Source: Mesorhizobium japonicum MAFF 303099 (GTDB taxonomy: Bacteria; Pseudomonadota; Alphaproteobacteria; Rhizobiales; Rhizobiaceae). From it: a stretch of DNA of 64,000 bases. Of the stretch, positions 45,919-53,488 are shown piece after piece. The stretch covers positions 1,240,001-1,304,000 of the forward strand of contig NC_002678.2 in NCBI RefSeq assembly GCF_000009625.1. The letters run 5' to 3'. The notes beneath the pieces are model-generated. The model had not been told where the DNA came from. It was given only the letters and a program-made list of their open reading frames with translations, and did not search any database. Positions within the stretch are counted from its first letter, which is position 1; every line of letters begins with the position of its first letter. The translations under genes were made by a program, and so were the position numbers.

Positions 45919-47598
45919 TCAGTTGGCCTGGCGGCGCAGGAACGCCGGAATCTCCAGCTGATCGTCGTCCTGAGTCGCCCTGGTCTGCGGCGTCAGGCGG
46001 CCCTGGTCGTCCAGCTGGCCGCGGCGCGGCGCATAGAGCTGGGCGTCCTGGCTGGCGAGACGGCGCACTTCAGGCGCTGCCTGGCGCAGCTTCGGCTCGC
46101 GCGGTTGCGCCGGCTGCAGCCTTGCGGGTTCCTCCTCGCGGCGGGTCAGGCCGTTGGTCAGGCGCTTCAACAGACCCATCGGGCCGCTGTTGTTCTCGTG
46201 GTCCACCGGGCGGCTCTTGGCGTCGACCTCGGCCTTCACCACCGGCGGAAAGTCCTCGACGCGCGGCATGCGCTGCGGTGCCATCGCCACCGGCTGCTGG
46301 ACCTCGCGCAGCATTTCGCGCGGCTGCGGGGCCGGCTGCATCTGCTGGACAACCGGCTGCGGCATTGGCTGCTGCGGCGGCGCCTGGAAGATCTTGCTCT
46401 GCGGGCGGAAATCGTCCGCATGGGCGACAGGAGCCGGACGGGCCTGCGCCATGGCGGCGGCGTTTGCCTCGGCAAGCTGGATGGCCTCGGCGACCGGGTC
46501 CGCGGCGCGCGGCTCGTAGACAGGCTGCTGGACCGGCGCCGGGCGGCTCTCCACGGCGGCCACGGCCGGACGGACGGCCGGCTTCGGCGGAGCCGTGCGG
46601 ATCGAGATCGGCGCCGCGGCGATTTCAGCGGCCGACTTGTCGATGCCGGTGGCGACCACCGAGACGCGGATGACGCCTTCGAGTTCCTCGTCGAAAGTAG
46701 CGCCGAGGATGATGTTGGCATCCTGGTCGACTTCCTCGCGGATACGGGTCGCCGCTTCGTCGACTTCGAACAGGGTCAGGTCGCGGCCGCCGGTGATCGA
46801 GATCAGCAGGCCCTTGGCGCCCTTCATCGAGGTCTCGTCGAGCAGCGGGTTGGCGATCGCAGCCTCTGCGGCGGCCATCGCACGGCCCTCGCCCGAAGCT
46901 TCGCCGGTGCCCATCATCGCCTTGCCCATTTCGCGCATCACCGAACGCACGTCGGCGAAGTCGAGGTTGATCAGGCCTTCCTTGACCATCAGGTCGGTGA
47001 TGCAGGCGACGCCGGAATAGAGCACCTGATCGGCCATGGCGAAGGCGTCGGCGAAGGTCGTTTTGTCATTGGCCAGCCGGAACAGGTTCTGGTTGGGGAT
47101 GACGATGAGGGTGTCGACGCATTTCTGCAGTTCCTCGATGCCCAGATCGGCCGTCTTCATGCGGCGCTGGCCTTCGAAGTGGAACGGCTTGGTGACGACG
47201 CCGACGGTGAGGATACCCTTTTCGCGCGCGGCGCGGGCAACGACCGGAGCAGCACCCGTGCCGGTGCCGCCGCCCATGCCGGCGGTGACGAAGCACATGT
47301 GGGTGTTGGACAGATGATCGATGATCTCGTCGATGCACTCTTCAGCCGCCGCGCGGCCGACTTCCGGCTGTGAGCCGGCGCCGAGGCCTTCGGTGACATG
47401 CGCGCCGAGCTGGATCAGCCGGTCGGCCTTCGACATGGTCAGCGCCTGCGCGTCGGTGTTGGCCACGACGAACTCGACACCGCGCAAGCCCGCGGTGATC
47501 ATGTTGTTCACGGCATTGCCGCCGCCGCCGCCGACACCGAACACGGTGATGCGCGGCTTAAGCTCGGTGATGTCCGGCTTCTGCAGATTGATGGTCAT
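45919..47598 (-). CDS. ftsZ: Cell division protein FtsZ
   Basis: The tubulin-like GTPase that forms the Z-ring, 559 aa. It starts [33 protein letters not shown]. The GTP signature GGGTGTGA is near residue 108 and the T7 loop [11 protein letters not shown] near 207. The globular part ends near residue 320. A long Pro/Gln/Ala/Arg-rich linker of about 220 residues follows, typical of Rhizobiales FtsZ1, then the conserved tail peptide [12 protein letters not shown]. It follows ftsA after 66 bp and ends in a strong terminator. Confidence 0.97.
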
Positions 47599-47664: not shown

Positions 47665-48972
47665 TTAGAAACTGTCTCTCAACCACTGACTCATGCGATG
47701 CAGTTTTCCACCCGTTCCGGTCATCCTGAGACCGGAAATGCCTTTTGCAGGATGGCTCTCAAAACTCGCCATCTGCGGATAGATCAGAAGCCCGACGGCG
47801 GCCGAGAAGGCCGGTCCCTTCGCCGCTTCGGGCAGGCCCGCCACGCCGAGCGGGCGGCCGATGCGCACATTGCGCCCCAGGATGCGGCGCGCCGCTTCCG
47901 GCAGGCCGGCCAGCTGGCTGGCGCCGCCGGTCAGCACGACACGCTTGCCGACGGCATTGCCGTAGCCGGACTTGTTCAGCCGGTCGCGCAACAATTCGAG
48001 CGTCTCGTCGATGCGGGCGCGCACGATGCGCGTCATCACCGAACGCGGGATCTGCAGCGGCACGTCGCCATCGTCGCCGATCGGCTGGATCGAGACCAGG
48101 TCGCGGTCATCGGCACTGCCCGGCAGCGCCGAGCCATGCATGACCTTCAGCCTTTCGGCGGCGTCGAGCGAGGTCGAGAGCCCCTTGGCCATGTCGAGCG
48201 TGACGTGATTGCCGCCGATGGCGATGGCGTCGCCATGAACGAACTTGCCTTCCGAAAACACCGAGATCGTCGTCGTGCCGCCGCCCATGTCGATGCAGGC
48301 GGCACCCAGTTCCAACTCGTCGTCGACCAGAGCCGCCAGCCCGCTGGCATAGGGCGTCGCCACCATGCGCTCGACCGACAGATGCGAACGGTTGATGGAA
48401 AGCTCCAGATTGCGCATCGGCGCTGCGTCACCCGTCAGCACATGCATGTCGACGCCAAGCGCGTCGCCGACCATGCCGCGCGGATCGCGCACGCCGCGCT
48501 CGGCATCGAGCGAGAAGCCGACGGGCAGCGAATGGATCACCTCGCGCTCGGCCTTGAGCGCCTGCTTGGCGCCGGCGCCGAGCACACGCTTGATGTCGGC
48601 CTCGTCGGCCTCGTGGCCGCCAAGATTGATGGTCGCCGAGAAGGCTTCGCTCTTCAGCCGGCCGGCGGTCATGTTGACGATGAGCGAATCGACCGTCAGC
48701 CCCGCCATGCGCTCGGCGGCGTCGACGGACAGGCGGATGGCATGCTCGGCCCGGTCGAGATCGACGACCACGCCCGACTTCACGCCTTGCGACTTCTGAT
48801 GACCGATGCCGATCACCTGGATCCGGTGCGAACGGCCGCGCAACAGCTTGCCGTCATCGTTCGGCTTGAGCTTGGCCACCATACAGCAGACCTTGTTCGA
48901 GCCGACATCCAGCACCGTCAGAGTGCCGGACCGGCGCGACGAGGCATCGCCTGAACCGCCAAGCCAGCTCAT
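47665..48972 (-). CDS. ftsA: Cell division protein FtsA
   Basis: The actin-like protein that anchors FtsZ to the membrane, 435 aa. It has LTVLDVGSNKVCCMVAKL at residue 17, AACIDMGGGTTTISVFSEG near 226 and VVLTGGASQLAGLPEAARR near 343. The end GKLHRMSQWLRDSF is the amphipathic membrane-targeting helix. Its ATG overlaps the ftsQ stop (ATGA), so it is translationally coupled to ftsQ. The N-terminal 15 residues (GGSGDASSRR) are a small extension. Confidence 0.96.
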   Translation of the reverse strand: MSWLGGSGDASSRRSGTLTVLDVGSNKVCCMVAKLKPNDDGKLLRGRSHRIQVIGIGHQKSQGVKSGVVVDLDRAEHAIRLSVDAAERMAGLTVDSLIVNMTAGRLKSEAFSATINLGGHEADEADIKRVLGAGAKQALKAEREVIHSLPVGFSLDAERGVRDPRGMVGDALGVDMHVLTGDAAPMRNLELSINRSHLSVERMVATPYASGLAALVDDELELGAACIDMGGGTTTISVFSEGKFVHGDAIAIGGNHVTLDMAKGLSTSLDAAERLKVMHGSALPGSADDRDLVSIQPIGDDGDVPLQIPRSVMTRIVRARIDETLELLRDRLNKSGYGNAVGKRVVLTGGASQLAGLPEAARRILGRNVRIGRPLGVAGLPEAAKGPAFSAAVGLLIYPQMASFESHPAKGISGLRMTGTGGKLHRMSQWLRDSF

Positions 48973-49910
48973 ATCTTCGTCTCCGACTTGCGCTTGAGGG
49001 TCTTCGGCTTTTCGTTGAGCGCGGCCTCGCGCTGCGTCGCCGCTTCGGGCGTCAGCTCCACGACCAGCCGGTCTGTCAGGCGCATGTCGACAGCGGCGAT
49101 GTCGCGCGACAAAAGCCCCTTGTCCTTATCCATCTTGGCCAGTTGGGCGAGTGCCTGGTCTTCCTCGTCCTCGGGCAGCTTGACGGTGATGCCGTTGTCG
49201 AGCTTCAGGTCCCAGCGGCGATCGCCAACGCGGATATAGCCTTTTACGCGGGTCGCCAGGTCCGGGTACTTTTCGACCTTGGCCAGGAAGTCCGGCGCCT
49301 TGGCCGGCGCGCCCTCGCCGATCAGTAACGGCAGCAGCACCTGCTTGCCGCCGGAGAACGGCGCGATGACAGCGCCATCCTTCTCGATGACCGAGAGATC
49401 ATTGCCTTGCTGCCAGAGCGCGAAAGCCTCGCGCTCCTCGACGCGCACTTCCAGCGTGTGCGGATAGACCTTGCGCACCGCCGCCACTTCGATCCACGGC
49501 AGGCCGGAGATGCGCTCGCGCGCGGCCTCCGCGTCGAAGCCGATCAGCGAGGTCCAGCCATCGAGTTCGAGCCTGTCGAGAATGTCGATCTCGGAGGTCT
49601 GGCGGTTGCCGACCACCTTGACCTGATCGACGGCGAAGCCGGTGCGGGCGGTGATGCTCTGGATGATGCCGTCGGCATGACCGCCGAGATAGGCACCATA
49701 GGCGCCGCTCGAAGCGAGCAGCACCGCCGACATCATCGCGGCGGAGAAGCGCGGCGCCTCGAATTCACCATCACCCAGGCGCGCCAGGATACGCACCGGG
49801 CGGCGAAGCATGCGCGGCAGCACGAAATGGCCTGATGACAACGACAAGCCGAACAGCGACGGCCCGGCCGCGCCCTTCCCCTTGCCTTGTCCCCATTTCA
49901 ACGCAGACAC
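48969..49910 (-). CDS. ftsQ: Cell division protein FtsQ
   Basis: A bitopic divisome protein of 313 aa. A cytoplasmic N-terminus of about 60 residues is followed by one helix ([23 protein letters not shown]). Then come the POTRA domain ([51 protein letters not shown]) and the beta domain. I chose GTG 49910 because GGAGG stands 7 nt before it. The ATG at 49931 lacks a site. The start lies 13 nt inside the ddl gene, so the two overlap. Confidence 0.93.
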
Positions 49911-50824
49911 GAAGCGTCCTCCACCATCCAACTCAACAACTCACCAAACGAATGCCCGGCATGGGCCGCAATTTCAGGCACCAGAGACGTCGGCGTCATG
50001 CCCGGCTGAGTGTTGACCTCGAGCCATACAACTTCGCCATTTTCGGAGTGACGATCGTCATAACGGAAGTCCGACCGGGAAACGCCCCGACAGCCGACAG
50101 CTTGGTGAGCCTTGAGCGCCAGTGTCTGTATTTTTTGGTAAATATTCGGTGAAACTTTTGCGGGGCATTCGTGTTTTGATCCGCCCGCGACATATTTTGA
50201 ATCGTAATCGTAGAAGGAATGGCCGGTCGGAATGATCTCGCAGACGCCGAGCGCCACATCACCCATGACGGCGCAGGTCAGCTCGCGCCCGTGGATATAG
50301 CGCTCGACCATGACGGTATCGCCATATTTCCACTCGGACGAGCCTACGACCTGCGGCGGATGCGACTGCCCCTCCGACACGATGACGACGCCGAAGCTCG
50401 ACCCCTCATTGACCGGCTTGATCACATAGGGCGGCTTCATCGGATGCTTGTTCTGGATGGCGAAGCGATTGGCGACCTTCGATTCGGCGACAGGCACACC
50501 CACCGTTTTGACGATCTTCTTCGCCTGCTCCTTGTTCATGGCGAGCGCCGAGGCGAGCACGCCGGAATGGGTGTAGGGAATGCCGAGATATTCGAGGATG
50601 CCCTGGATGGTGCCGTCCTCGCCGAACGGGCCGTGCAACGCATTGAAGGCGACGTCAGGCTTGAGTTCGGCAAGCACCGAGCCGACATCGCGCCCGACAT
50701 CGACGCGGGTGACCTGGTAACCCTCATTCTCCAGCGCATCGGCACAGGCCTTTCCGGAAGACAGGGACACGGGCCGCTCGGACGAAAAACCTCCCAGCAG
50801 GACGGCCACATGCTTGCTTTTCAT
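49898..50824 (-). CDS. ddl: D-alanine--D-alanine ligase
   Basis: An ATP-grasp ligase of 308 aa that makes the D-Ala-D-Ala end of the peptidoglycan stem. It starts [39 protein letters not shown] is near residue 62, [18 protein letters not shown] near 133 and [14 protein letters not shown] with [12 protein letters not shown] near 248-280. The stretch coded by about 50128-50215 is unusually AT-rich and uses codons rare in the neighbours (AAA, ATA, AAT), although the protein sequence is conserved. It is the first gene after the 301-bp gap that splits the dcw cluster. Confidence 0.96.
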
Positions 50825-51125
50825 TCCCCGTCATCCCCTCTCACGGCGGACCAAAAACCAAGATTTCCGCAACATTGAGTCCGAGTCTCCCGGCAGGTTG
50901 CCCCCCAGACGGAAAACGCGGGTAACGCGTCGAACGACTCAAATCAGGAAACGCTTTCCAGCAGAGAATCAGAGAGTTGATTCACTGGCAAGTGCTTATG
51001 ATTCCGAGAGATTCACTTTCTGAGAAAATGGCTGCGAAAACCGTGCCGCTGAGTCCCTGGAGCAACGGTTTTGCGCGTTTTGGGAAGGTGCTGAAGTTCA
51101 TGCATCACATGAACTTCAGCACAGG
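50825..51125 (-). promoter_or_regulatory. murB-ddl gap: GANTC-rich promoter region
   Basis: This is the only gap longer than 70 bp inside the dcw cluster. It holds no supported ORF. It contains eight GANTC sites: 50877, 50883, 50936, 50966, 50979, 51000, 51010 and 51051 (first base). At its murB end is a perfect 15-bp hairpin. It most likely carries the promoter of ddl-ftsQ-ftsA-ftsZ. GANTC is the target of the cell-cycle methylase CcrM, so methylation-dependent control is a reasonable inference. Confidence 0.6.
51088..51122 (-). terminator. Perfect 15-bp hairpin after murB
   Basis: GTGCTGAAGTTCATG (51088-51102) and CATGAACTTCAGCAC (51108-51122) pair perfectly around CATCA, only 3 bp past the murB stop codon. 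On the minus strand no U-run follows. It may still terminate or stabilise the upstream mur transcript. Confidence 0.6.
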
Positions 51126-52091
51126 TCAGAGAAGCTGACCCAAAAACTCCTGAACGGCATGTCCGGGCCGGAAATTGCCGATGCGCTTGATCTCCCACTG
51201 CAGCCGGATGCCCGAATGTTCGAGCACGCGGGCGCGCACCGTCTCGCCGAGATATTCAAGGTCGTAGCCGGTCGCAGTGCCGGTGTTGATCATGAAATTG
51301 CAGTGCATCGGCGACATCTGCGCGCCGCCGATCATCAGGCCACGGCAGCCCGCCTTGTCGATCTCCTTCCAGGCCGACGTGCCTTCGGGATTCTTGAAGG
51401 TCGAGCCGCCGGTCTTTTCGCGGATCGGCTGCACGGTCTCGCGGTGATTCTGCACCGCATCCATCGCCGCCTTGATGGTGGCCTTGTCCTCGGCAAAGCC
51501 TTCGAACACGGCCGAGGTGAAGATCAGCCCGACAGGGGCCGCCGAATGGCGATAGGCATAGCCCATCTCGGCATTGCTCATCGTCTGGACATTGCCCTTG
51601 CGGTCGAGCGCACGCACCTCGACCACGCGCTCGCGCGTCTCCACGCCATTGGCGCCGGCATTCATCCTCAGCGCCCCACCGATGGCGCCCGGAATGCCGT
51701 GGTAGAAATGGAAGCCACCAATGCCGGCTTCCAGCGCCAAGGCCGCGACACGCTTGTCGGGCGTGGCGGCACCCGCCTTGATCCTGATCGGCGAAACGAT
51801 CTCGGCCTCACCAAAGCCCTTGGCCGAAAGCCGGATGACGAAGCCTGGAATGCCCCCGTCTCTGACCAAAAGGTTCGAACCGACGCCGACAATCGTCAGG
51901 GGGATTTCTTCAGGAACCGCGCGCAGGAACGCGGCAAGGTCTTCTTCATCGGCCGGCTGGAAAAACACCTCTGCCAGGCCGCCGGCGCGGAACCAGGTGA
52001 TCTTGTCCATCTCGGCATTTGGCGTGAGACGGCCGCGCAGGCCGGCAAGCCGGTCACCAAGTCTGTCGATCAGGGCCTGGCCGTGCATCAT
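51126..52091 (-). CDS. murB: UDP-N-acetylenolpyruvoylglucosamine reductase
   Basis: A FAD-dependent enzyme of 321 aa that completes UDP-MurNAc synthesis. [21 protein letters not shown] near residue 32 starts the FAD domain, and [20 protein letters not shown] is near 68. [18 protein letters not shown] near 125 and [10 protein letters not shown] near 230 contain active-site residues, including the proton-donating Ser. Its ATG overlaps the murC stop (ATGATG). It is the last gene of the upstream mur block. Confidence 0.95.
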
Positions 52092-53488
52092 GAGGCGGCA
52101 AGCTCCTTTGGCAGAGCATAGGCCCATTGGGTGATGTTGCCGGCGCCGAGGAAGACGACGAAGTCGCCGGGCTTGGCCAGGCCGCGAATGATCGGCGCGA
52201 TCGCTGTCGGCCCCTCGATATAGCGCGCGTCACGATGACCGCCGGCGCGGATGCGCGACACCAGTTCGTCCGAGCTGACGCCGTCGATCGGGTCTTCGCC
52301 GGCAGCATAGACCGGCGCGACAATCACCGTGTCGGCGTCGTTGAAGCAGGCGGAGAACTCGTTGAACAGATCGTGGAGCCGGGTGAAGCGGTGCGGTTGG
52401 GCAATGGCGATGACGCGGCCCTTGGTGGCGCTGCGCGCCGCCTTCAGCACCGCCGAGATCTCGACCGGATGGTGGCCGTAATCGTCGAACACATCGACGC
52501 CGTTCCAGGATCCGGTATGGGTGAAGCGGCGCTTGACGCCGGCGAAGGACGACAGGCCCTTCTTGATCGCCTCGCCGGACAGGCCGAGCTCATGCGCGAC
52601 GGCGATCGCGGCGGTGGCGTTGGAGACATTGTGGCGGCCGGGCATCGGCAGGCGCAGGCCTGAAATCGTGCTCTGGCTGCCGGTCTTGCGGTCGCGGATC
52701 ACCACGTCGAATTCGGAGGTGGCGCCCGCCATGCGGTGGTTGGTGAAGCGCACATCGGCTTGCGCGTTCTCGCCGTAGGTGATGACGCGGCGGTCCTCGA
52801 TGCGGCCGACCAGCGCCTGCACTTCAGGATGGTCGGTGCACATCACGCCAAAGCCGTAGAACGGCACGTTCTCGACGAACTGGCGGAACGCCTCGCGCAC
52901 CTTGTCGAAACTGCCATAGTGGTCGAGATGTTCGGGATCGATGTTGGTGACGACGGCGATGTCGGCCGGCAATTTGAGGAAGGTGCCGTCGCTCTCGTCG
53001 GCCTCGACCACCATCCACTCGCCGTCGCCCATGCGCGCATTGGTGCCATAGGCATTGATGATGCCGCCATTGATGACGGTCGGATCGAGCCCGCCGGCTT
53101 CGAGCAAGGTCGCGACCATCGAGGTCGTCGTCGTCTTGCCATGCGTGCCGCCGATCGCCACCGCCTGGCGAAAGCGCATCAGCTCGGCCAGCATTTCGGC
53201 GCGGCGCACGATCGGCAGCAGCTTTTCGCGCGCGGCCTTCAGTTCCGGATTGGTCTTCTTGATCGCCGTCGAGACGACCACCACCTCGGCATCGCCGAGA
53301 TTCTCGGCCTTGTGGCCGACGAAGCATTCGATGCCCTTGTCGCGCAGCCGCTGCACATTGGCGCTGTCGGCCTGGTCGGACCCTTGCACCTTGTAACCGA
53401 GATTGTGCAGCACCTCGGCGATGCCGCTCATGCCGATGCCGCCAATGCCGATGAAATGCACAAGGCCGATGGTCTGCGGCATCTTCAT
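52088..53488 (-). CDS. murC: UDP-N-acetylmuramate--L-alanine ligase
   Basis: A Mur ligase of 466 aa that adds L-Ala to UDP-MurNAc. The N-terminal domain has [23 protein letters not shown]. The ATP site is [14 protein letters not shown] near residue 112, [14 protein letters not shown] near 160 and [14 protein letters not shown] near 183 follow, and the third domain contains [10 protein letters not shown] near 335. It overlaps murG upstream and murB downstream by 4 nt each (ATGA type). Confidence 0.96.

Follow-up and report, generated by a model that had tools for sequence, protein, structure and literature searches.

The 301-bp gap between murB and ddl in Mesorhizobium japonicum MAFF 303099 raises the question of whether the division genes that follow it are controlled through methylation of GANTC, the target of CcrM. 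The gap lies at positions 50825 to 51125 of the 64,000-nucleotide stretch that was analysed (the window), bordered by the ATG of ddl (50824) and the murB stop codon (51126), with both genes on the minus strand. It encloses eight GANTC sites, starting at 50877, 50883, 50936, 50966, 50979, 51000, 51010 and 51051; the eight coordinates given in a preliminary description of the window were confirmed to the base, as was their confinement to this gap, and its being the single large gap was checked over the genes from ftsZ to murB. The upstream gene, murB (51126 to 52127, minus strand), had a tblastn match in 65 of the 80 orthologous loci kept for ddl (49898 to 50824, minus strand), the first gene downstream. 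On the same strand follow ftsQ (48969 to 49931), whose overlap with ddl results from a mechanically assigned ORF start, ftsA (47665 to 48972), which overlaps ftsQ by 4 bp, and ftsZ (45919 to 47598), 66 bp after ftsA. Except for GcrA and the RAMA protein described below, gene names come from our own reading of the translations, without family searches, and for ftsQ, ftsA and ftsZ also from gene order. The array heads a tightly packed ddl-ftsQ-ftsA-ftsZ unit, predicted to be transcribed as one.

GANTC is strongly avoided in this genome. The chromosome contained 3,124 sites in 116 sampled 20-kb stretches (2.32 Mb; L107 was left out because it overlaps the window), that is, 1.35 per kb or one per 743 bp, and the 64-kb window held 79, where dinucleotide shuffles averaged 305. 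The expectation of one site per 250-300 bp in the preliminary description agrees with base composition (approximately the shuffle mean) but not with the genome's own rate; given this depletion it set the expected number too high, and the cluster is less common than had been claimed. No span with eight GANTC in 175 bp was found in the 2.32-Mb sample, where seven were reached in two spans. When 301-bp windows were slid by 10 bp, 8 of 228,520 contained at least eight sites, at least some of them at L166. GC-matched windows of 301 bp (n = 1,857) held a mean of 0.71 sites and a maximum of 7, and none of 5,000 dinucleotide shuffles of the gap reached eight (mean, 1.8). Thus, by the sample, by the GC-matched windows and by the shuffles, similar clusters are not common genome-wide, and this first of the findings that would have told against the preliminary description did not materialise.

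Since the cluster had been chosen for its density, the independent evidence is its conservation across species. Public genomes were scanned with Ddl, and the best 80 of 583 loci were kept. Within 320 bp upstream of ddl, at least four GANTC were present in 48 of these best 80 loci and none in 7. The 30 loci nearest by Ddl, which include Mesorhizobium, Aminobacter, Oryzicola, Corticibacterium, Aliihoeflea, Aquamicrobium, Pseudaminobacter and Aquibium, carried 4 to 9 sites each. In an enrichment set of 33 loci (L001-L030, L032, L034 and L036, window excluded), GANTC reached 21.3 per kb upstream of ddl against 1.30 per kb in the remainder of the same loci, a 16.3-fold enrichment; the second of the 16 XYNyx palindromes, TCNGA, was enriched 3.8-fold. 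Site retention and changes on the ddl tree were followed in 33 sequences, namely the window and 32 loci (L001-L030, L032 and L034, with L031 and L033 dropped). The fixed GA-TC columns of the eight sites showed 2.19 changes per column; 50 slid masks averaged 4.48 and never fell below 2.94, and the other gap columns gave 4.98. As the site columns changed less than under every slid mask, conservation is, judging by the aligned sequences, centred on the GANTC sites and not merely on the gap. Locus counts, density and tree alike indicate that the array is kept in orthologous murB-ddl gaps, a conservation on which the preliminary description had made its proposal depend.

The alignment A1 (the window plus 28 of the 80 loci) and the model R1 delimited a conserved 85-bp core (50935 to 51019; minus strand, as for all features below), in which five GANTC are spaced 10, 21, 13 and 30 bp. 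On the coding strand it reads AAAGTGAATC..GGAATC..ACTTGCCA..GAATC..TCTCTGATTC..GTTTCCTGATTTGAGTCG. The degree of retention in the 33 sequences varied from site to site. The outermost GANTC (51051 to 51055) was kept in 15, and the two sites 10 bp apart at 51000 and 51010 (51000 to 51014) in 26 and 25, respectively. Site 50979 (50979 to 50983) was kept in 32, with A at the N position in 28, T in two, G in one and C in one; with GA and TC fixed and N taking all four bases, it varies as would be expected of a methylase target. Site 50966, within the block TCTCTGATTCT (50963 to 50973), was present in all 33, with zero parsimony changes at its five columns; TCTGATTC was invariant in A1, and the block was the same or nearly the same in Rhizobium, Shinella and Sinorhizobium loci. 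The nearly invariant block GTTTCCTGATTTGAGTCG (50935 to 50952) contains site 50936, also kept in 33 of 33. For their part, the seventh and eighth sites (50877 to 50887), GAGTC at 50883-50887 and GAGTC at 50877-50881, located 63 and 57 bp upstream of the start of ddl, were kept in 19 and 28, and the stretch from site 50936 to ddl was rich in indels.

The blocks at 50966 and 50936 changed little or not at all in the 33 sequences, N included. They are therefore conserved beyond GANTC, which suggests that something reads more than GANTC there. A further conserved element, CTTGCCA (50986 to 50992; CTTGYC when conserved), starts 22 bp before site 50966, and its positions C28, T29, T30, G31 and C33 were invariant in A1; its CTTGCC hexamer could be a -35-like box of a putative promoter. 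Loci of Shinella and Rhizobium retained CTCTGATTC but often lacked the CTTG box and a counterpart of site 50979. Similarly, in many Rhizobium, Shinella and Sinorhizobium loci GATTC (mostly CTCTGATTC) and TGATTCG/T, 29-32 bp further on, persisted amid changed surroundings.

An extended motif, YGAKTCK/TGATTCG, has been proposed for GcrA-activated promoters of Caulobacter crescentus (PMC7987155; this and the other papers cited were available in part and are quoted for those parts). TGAGTCG at 50935-50941, read in transcription orientation, fits YGAKTCK. The counterpart of site 50936 fitted it on the same strand in all 50 of the 80 loci that passed a site-pair test. Because these loci are related they are not independent of one another, and the sequence was already known when the motif was consulted. 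The variants were TGAGTCG in 33 loci, TGATTCG in 13 and TGATTCT in 4, with variation only at the two K positions; the background fit, read on one strand, was 391 of 3,124 GANTC sites (12.5%). Thirty of the 80 loci failed the test, which depends on CT in the flank; two of them, L061 and L072, do carry two sites at a distance of 30 bp and are missed by it. In the available part of PMC7987155, the extended motif was not seen at the GcrA targets of Brevundimonas. Sites located between -10 and -35 are associated in Caulobacter with activation at 40-60 min (PMC4287350).

Model R1, built from sequence only, gave one confident match in its own genome (E 4.7e-24, the next being 0.35; 150 of 1,147 first-look candidates were scored), and a repeat family or mobile element was ruled out on this basis. 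In the family Rhizobiaceae, R1 matched 135 of the 297 genomes sampled at E <= 0.01, covering 55 of the 109 genera; about three of the 135 matches could be due to chance at this per-genome threshold, and ddl adjoined the core in the 30 best of the 135 loci. Of 297 genomes drawn evenly from the order, a search under strict filters matched 9; eight of these belong to the window's genus, its own genome among them. Since 13 of the 297 were listed as the window's family, these 9 matches say little about the family. A further survey found a match in 101 of 101 genomes, a few of them weak, and 30 loci were counted. In the 27 belonging to other families of the order, the ∼320 bp before ddl contained no GANTC in 17, one in 8, two in one and three in one, and in 11 of them the murB match ended at most 31 bp from ddl, leaving no room for an array. 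L237, from another genus of the window's family and among the 30 counted loci, had no GANTC upstream of ddl. Within what was sampled, the array is apparently confined to the family of the window.

Differences were also observed between named lineages. Mesorhizobium and Phyllobacterium loci keep the core, as do Aminobacter loci with three of its five sites, and the site pair persists in loci of Shinella, R. tropici, S. medicae and S. saheli. The array is missing from R. leguminosarum-type loci: those of R. johnstonii 3841, R. anhuiense and R. lentis showed zero GANTC within 320 bp of ddl, others of the group one or two, and the single named Agrobacterium locus (L064) three, without the site pair. 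A shift of the array upstream of inserted genes was not borne out: among six loci inspected for this, those of R. johnstonii, R. anhuiense and Rhizobium sp. L43 carried two to three GANTC near an aquaporin-like gene (our own ORF reading, L066), ∼950-1018 bp upstream of ddl, but lacked the element there. In L031, L033, L050, L055 and other Rhizobium or Sinorhizobium loci with fewer GANTC, TTAA/GTTAAC boxes that resemble CtrA sites were seen upstream of ddl, near the remaining sites.

Both proteins of the proposed control are encoded in the genome. GcrA was identified in a 176-aa frame (PF07750, E 1.5e-58), and a CcrM-like protein in a 386-aa frame with a RAMA match over the cut-off (E 4.9e-15) and a DPPYNL motif, which we take as support for its identity as an N6-adenine methylase.

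From the sequence we consider it reasonably probable that the gap is a CcrM/GcrA-responsive regulatory region, most likely a promoter, of ddl-ftsQ-ftsA-ftsZ, with methylation of the array, promoter activity, transcription of the four genes as a unit and GcrA binding all predicted. The methylation switch on a ddl-ftsQAZ promoter suggested in the preliminary description is favoured by the rare and conserved array, its place at the head of a tight unit, the CcrM and GcrA genes and the YGAKTCK fit, but not by a scan of 50700-51300 for consensus sigma-70 promoters, which gave no match (and no terminator either). In the mechanism we envisage, CcrM would methylate the GANTC array late in the cell cycle, and sigma-70 RNA polymerase and GcrA would be recruited to the core (CTTGYCA, TCTCTGATTC and TGAKTCG), the basal promoter being weak. 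Passage of the fork would then leave the array hemimethylated and shift GcrA occupancy, and the output of division proteins would thereby be tied to replication. Activation is thought to be a more likely effect than repression. Precedents exist in both directions: methylation activates ftsZ of Caulobacter (PMC3708114), where CcrM sites also drive mipZ (PMC3708114) and ftsN (PMC3885167), and represses the six-GANTC gcrA promoter of Agrobacterium tumefaciens (PMC11514494). GcrA of S. meliloti binds DNA in dependence on GANTC methylation (PMC3667746). According to the available parts of the respective papers, ftsZ changed less than 2-fold or not significantly upon CcrM depletion in A. tumefaciens (PMC11514494), and GANTC shows no enrichment in the cell-cycle promoters of E. 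meliloti (PMC8725594).

The same conservation beyond GANTC at 50966 and 50936, N included, could have another factor as its reason. The core might thus be the promoter or operator of a different regulator whose sites happen to contain GATTC or GAGTC, methylation being incidental or merely blocked; the persistence of CTCTGATTC where adjacent GANTC are lost also speaks for this reading, which we judge rather unlikely. However, it leaves unexplained the recurrence of further GANTC, the variable N at 50979, the 16-fold enrichment of GANTC alone among 16 palindromes and a downstream site that varies only at two K positions. Binding of MucR to the AT-richer gap (52.8% GC, compared with 63.0% in the 2.32-Mb sample) would have a different outcome, as it would keep CcrM off and leave a stably hypomethylated, MucR-repressed promoter. 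C. crescentus and S. meliloti both have promoter GANTC that MucR shields (PMC5172544), with several sites in one alphaproteobacterial promoter, as here, and MucR there keeps the sites unmethylated. Such shielding, however, predicts neither the fixed spacing nor the YGAKTCK fit, and the S. meliloti examples tested sit on the symbiotic megaplasmid pSymA (PMC5172544); nor is a MucR consensus motif known that could be tested, as far as the available part of PMC7987155 goes. In the parts of the literature at hand, no MucR-shielded ddl-ftsZ case was found (PMC5172544), and what was available of PMC9022086 is silent on the ddl promoter. We regard MucR shielding as improbable.

Two further explanations were rejected. 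The conserved segment could belong to an mRNA leader with a GAATCA/TGATTC hairpin controlling translation or termination, since an inverted repeat links sites 50979 and 50966, with 94.3% of the cells paired. Against this, double-sided changes occurred in none of the six stem pairs, the pair at the N position was broken in 3 of 29 sequences and the loop-closing pair in six, indels are abundant between site 50936 and ddl, and no Rfam match up to E 1 was obtained in 49000-53000. The missing Rfam match and compensatory changes make an RNA leader very unlikely. Chance, composition or a general GANTC excess of intergenic DNA is the least credible account, with a probability close to nil, even though the intergenic DNA of Alphaproteobacteria is enriched in GANTC (PMC3973325), two other seven-site spans occur in the sample and a few 301-bp windows (8 of the 228,520) reach at least eight sites. 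It is contradicted by the sample density, by the shuffles, by the GC-matched windows (mean 0.71, maximum 7 of 1,857) and by a conservation that is site-centred when compared with slid masks.

If the gap is indeed a CcrM/GcrA-responsive region, the role of so many sites has to be considered. Each GANTC becomes hemimethylated on copying. The hemimethylated interval should depend on fork passage and on the time of CcrM production, and a larger number of sites would not by itself prolong it. The preliminary description had likened the many hemimethylated sites to a replication timer; the idea that a high site number lengthens or improves such a timer is not supported. In published methylomes the methylated fraction follows ori-ter position (PMC8725594) and CcrM acts late (PMC11514494), and no link was found between the density of sites and the duration of hemimethylation. 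Many sites could instead sharpen the response, provided that GcrA contacts add up. Tentatively, and with odds well short of even, the array may act as an integrator of replication state for ddl-ftsQ-ftsA-ftsZ in Mesorhizobium and approximately half of the sampled genera of the family (55 of 109), several GcrA-RNA polymerase contacts reading the summed methylation and producing a sharper switch than that of the Caulobacter ftsZ promoter. If so, control of division by methylation would have evolved separately here, and it would partly explain how CcrM can be essential in Rhizobiales. Replication time of the ddl locus is not claimed, because GC skew was too noisy for locating ori and ter: its cumulative minimum fell at ∼4.28 Mb, compared with ∼3.57 Mb for a GANTC cluster flanked by hemE.

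The arrangement resembles that of the C. crescentus ftsZ and mipZ promoters (PMC3708114) in having CcrM sites upstream that are conserved in relatives, together with GcrA and CcrM in the genome. It differs in that C. crescentus has few GANTC directly before ftsZ or mipZ (two at mipZ; PMC3667746), whereas here eight precede ddl, three genes upstream of ftsZ. The gcrA promoter of A. tumefaciens, from a related rhizobial genus, likewise carries a dense array before a cell-cycle gene (six GANTC in 250 bp, methylation sensitive); however, its target is gcrA, and methylation lowers its activity (PMC11514494). At A. tumefaciens repABC/ori2, too, GANTC are more numerous than expected in a CcrM- and GcrA-linked control region, but these groups belong to a replication-partition operon with three sites per promoter and not to division genes (PMC11514494). 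As for ddl itself, no report of an array was found in the papers searched; PMC2877005 assesses CcrM sites before cell-cycle genes in its supplements.

In 2013, the promoters of ftsZ and mipZ in Rhizobiales were reported not to bear GANTC frequently, and CcrM was considered most probably not to be essential through ftsZ or mipZ (PMC3708114). If the division genes are driven three genes upstream, at the array, this argument need not hold for the lineages that keep it. The array suggests that division genes in Mesorhizobium and many relatives may be methylation switched, and the ftsZ route to the essentiality of CcrM in Rhizobiales is worth reopening for array-keeping lineages. The core is short, has one confident genomic copy and differs between named lineages, and the question is therefore directly testable.

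Other GANTC-dense spans were observed in the genome. Upstream of gcrA, four GANTC with starts spanning 142 bp are located no more than 180 bp from the gene (L161:16532-16678, the same as L081:2043-2189). This span is among the 28 of 3,124 starts with at least four GANTC in 175 bp, as retrieved by a density scan blind to function, and the A. tumefaciens gcrA promoter, with its six sites, is similar to it (PMC11514494). The four densest spans were L137:9344-9448 (∼3,089,344), where seven GANTC occupy 105 bp immediately ahead of a helicase-like ORF of 1172 aa; L166:1237-1412, with seven in 176 bp among broken, IS-like ORFs; L145:12612-12773 (∼3,572,612), with six between hemE and a PPSR-type regulatory-protein-like gene (all three by our own reading); and L171:5603-5713, where five occupy 111 bp immediately ahead of a repeat-rich ORF of 1748 aa. 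From what is familiar in Caulobacter and Rhizobiales, we take the hemE-flanked L145 region to be the likely oriC. Only L145 among the four is linked to the cell cycle; density alone is thus no pointer to cell-cycle control.

Finally, a perfect 15-bp inverted repeat was present at 51088 to 51122, directly after the murB stop codon and outside the 85-bp core. The terminator scan did not list it, and it is therefore perhaps an operator. Its strict form had no copies in the 2.32-Mb sample and its loose form one, and its GTTCA-N9-TGAAC core was found in 11 of the 30 nearest loci (L001-L030) when 1 kb before ddl was searched.
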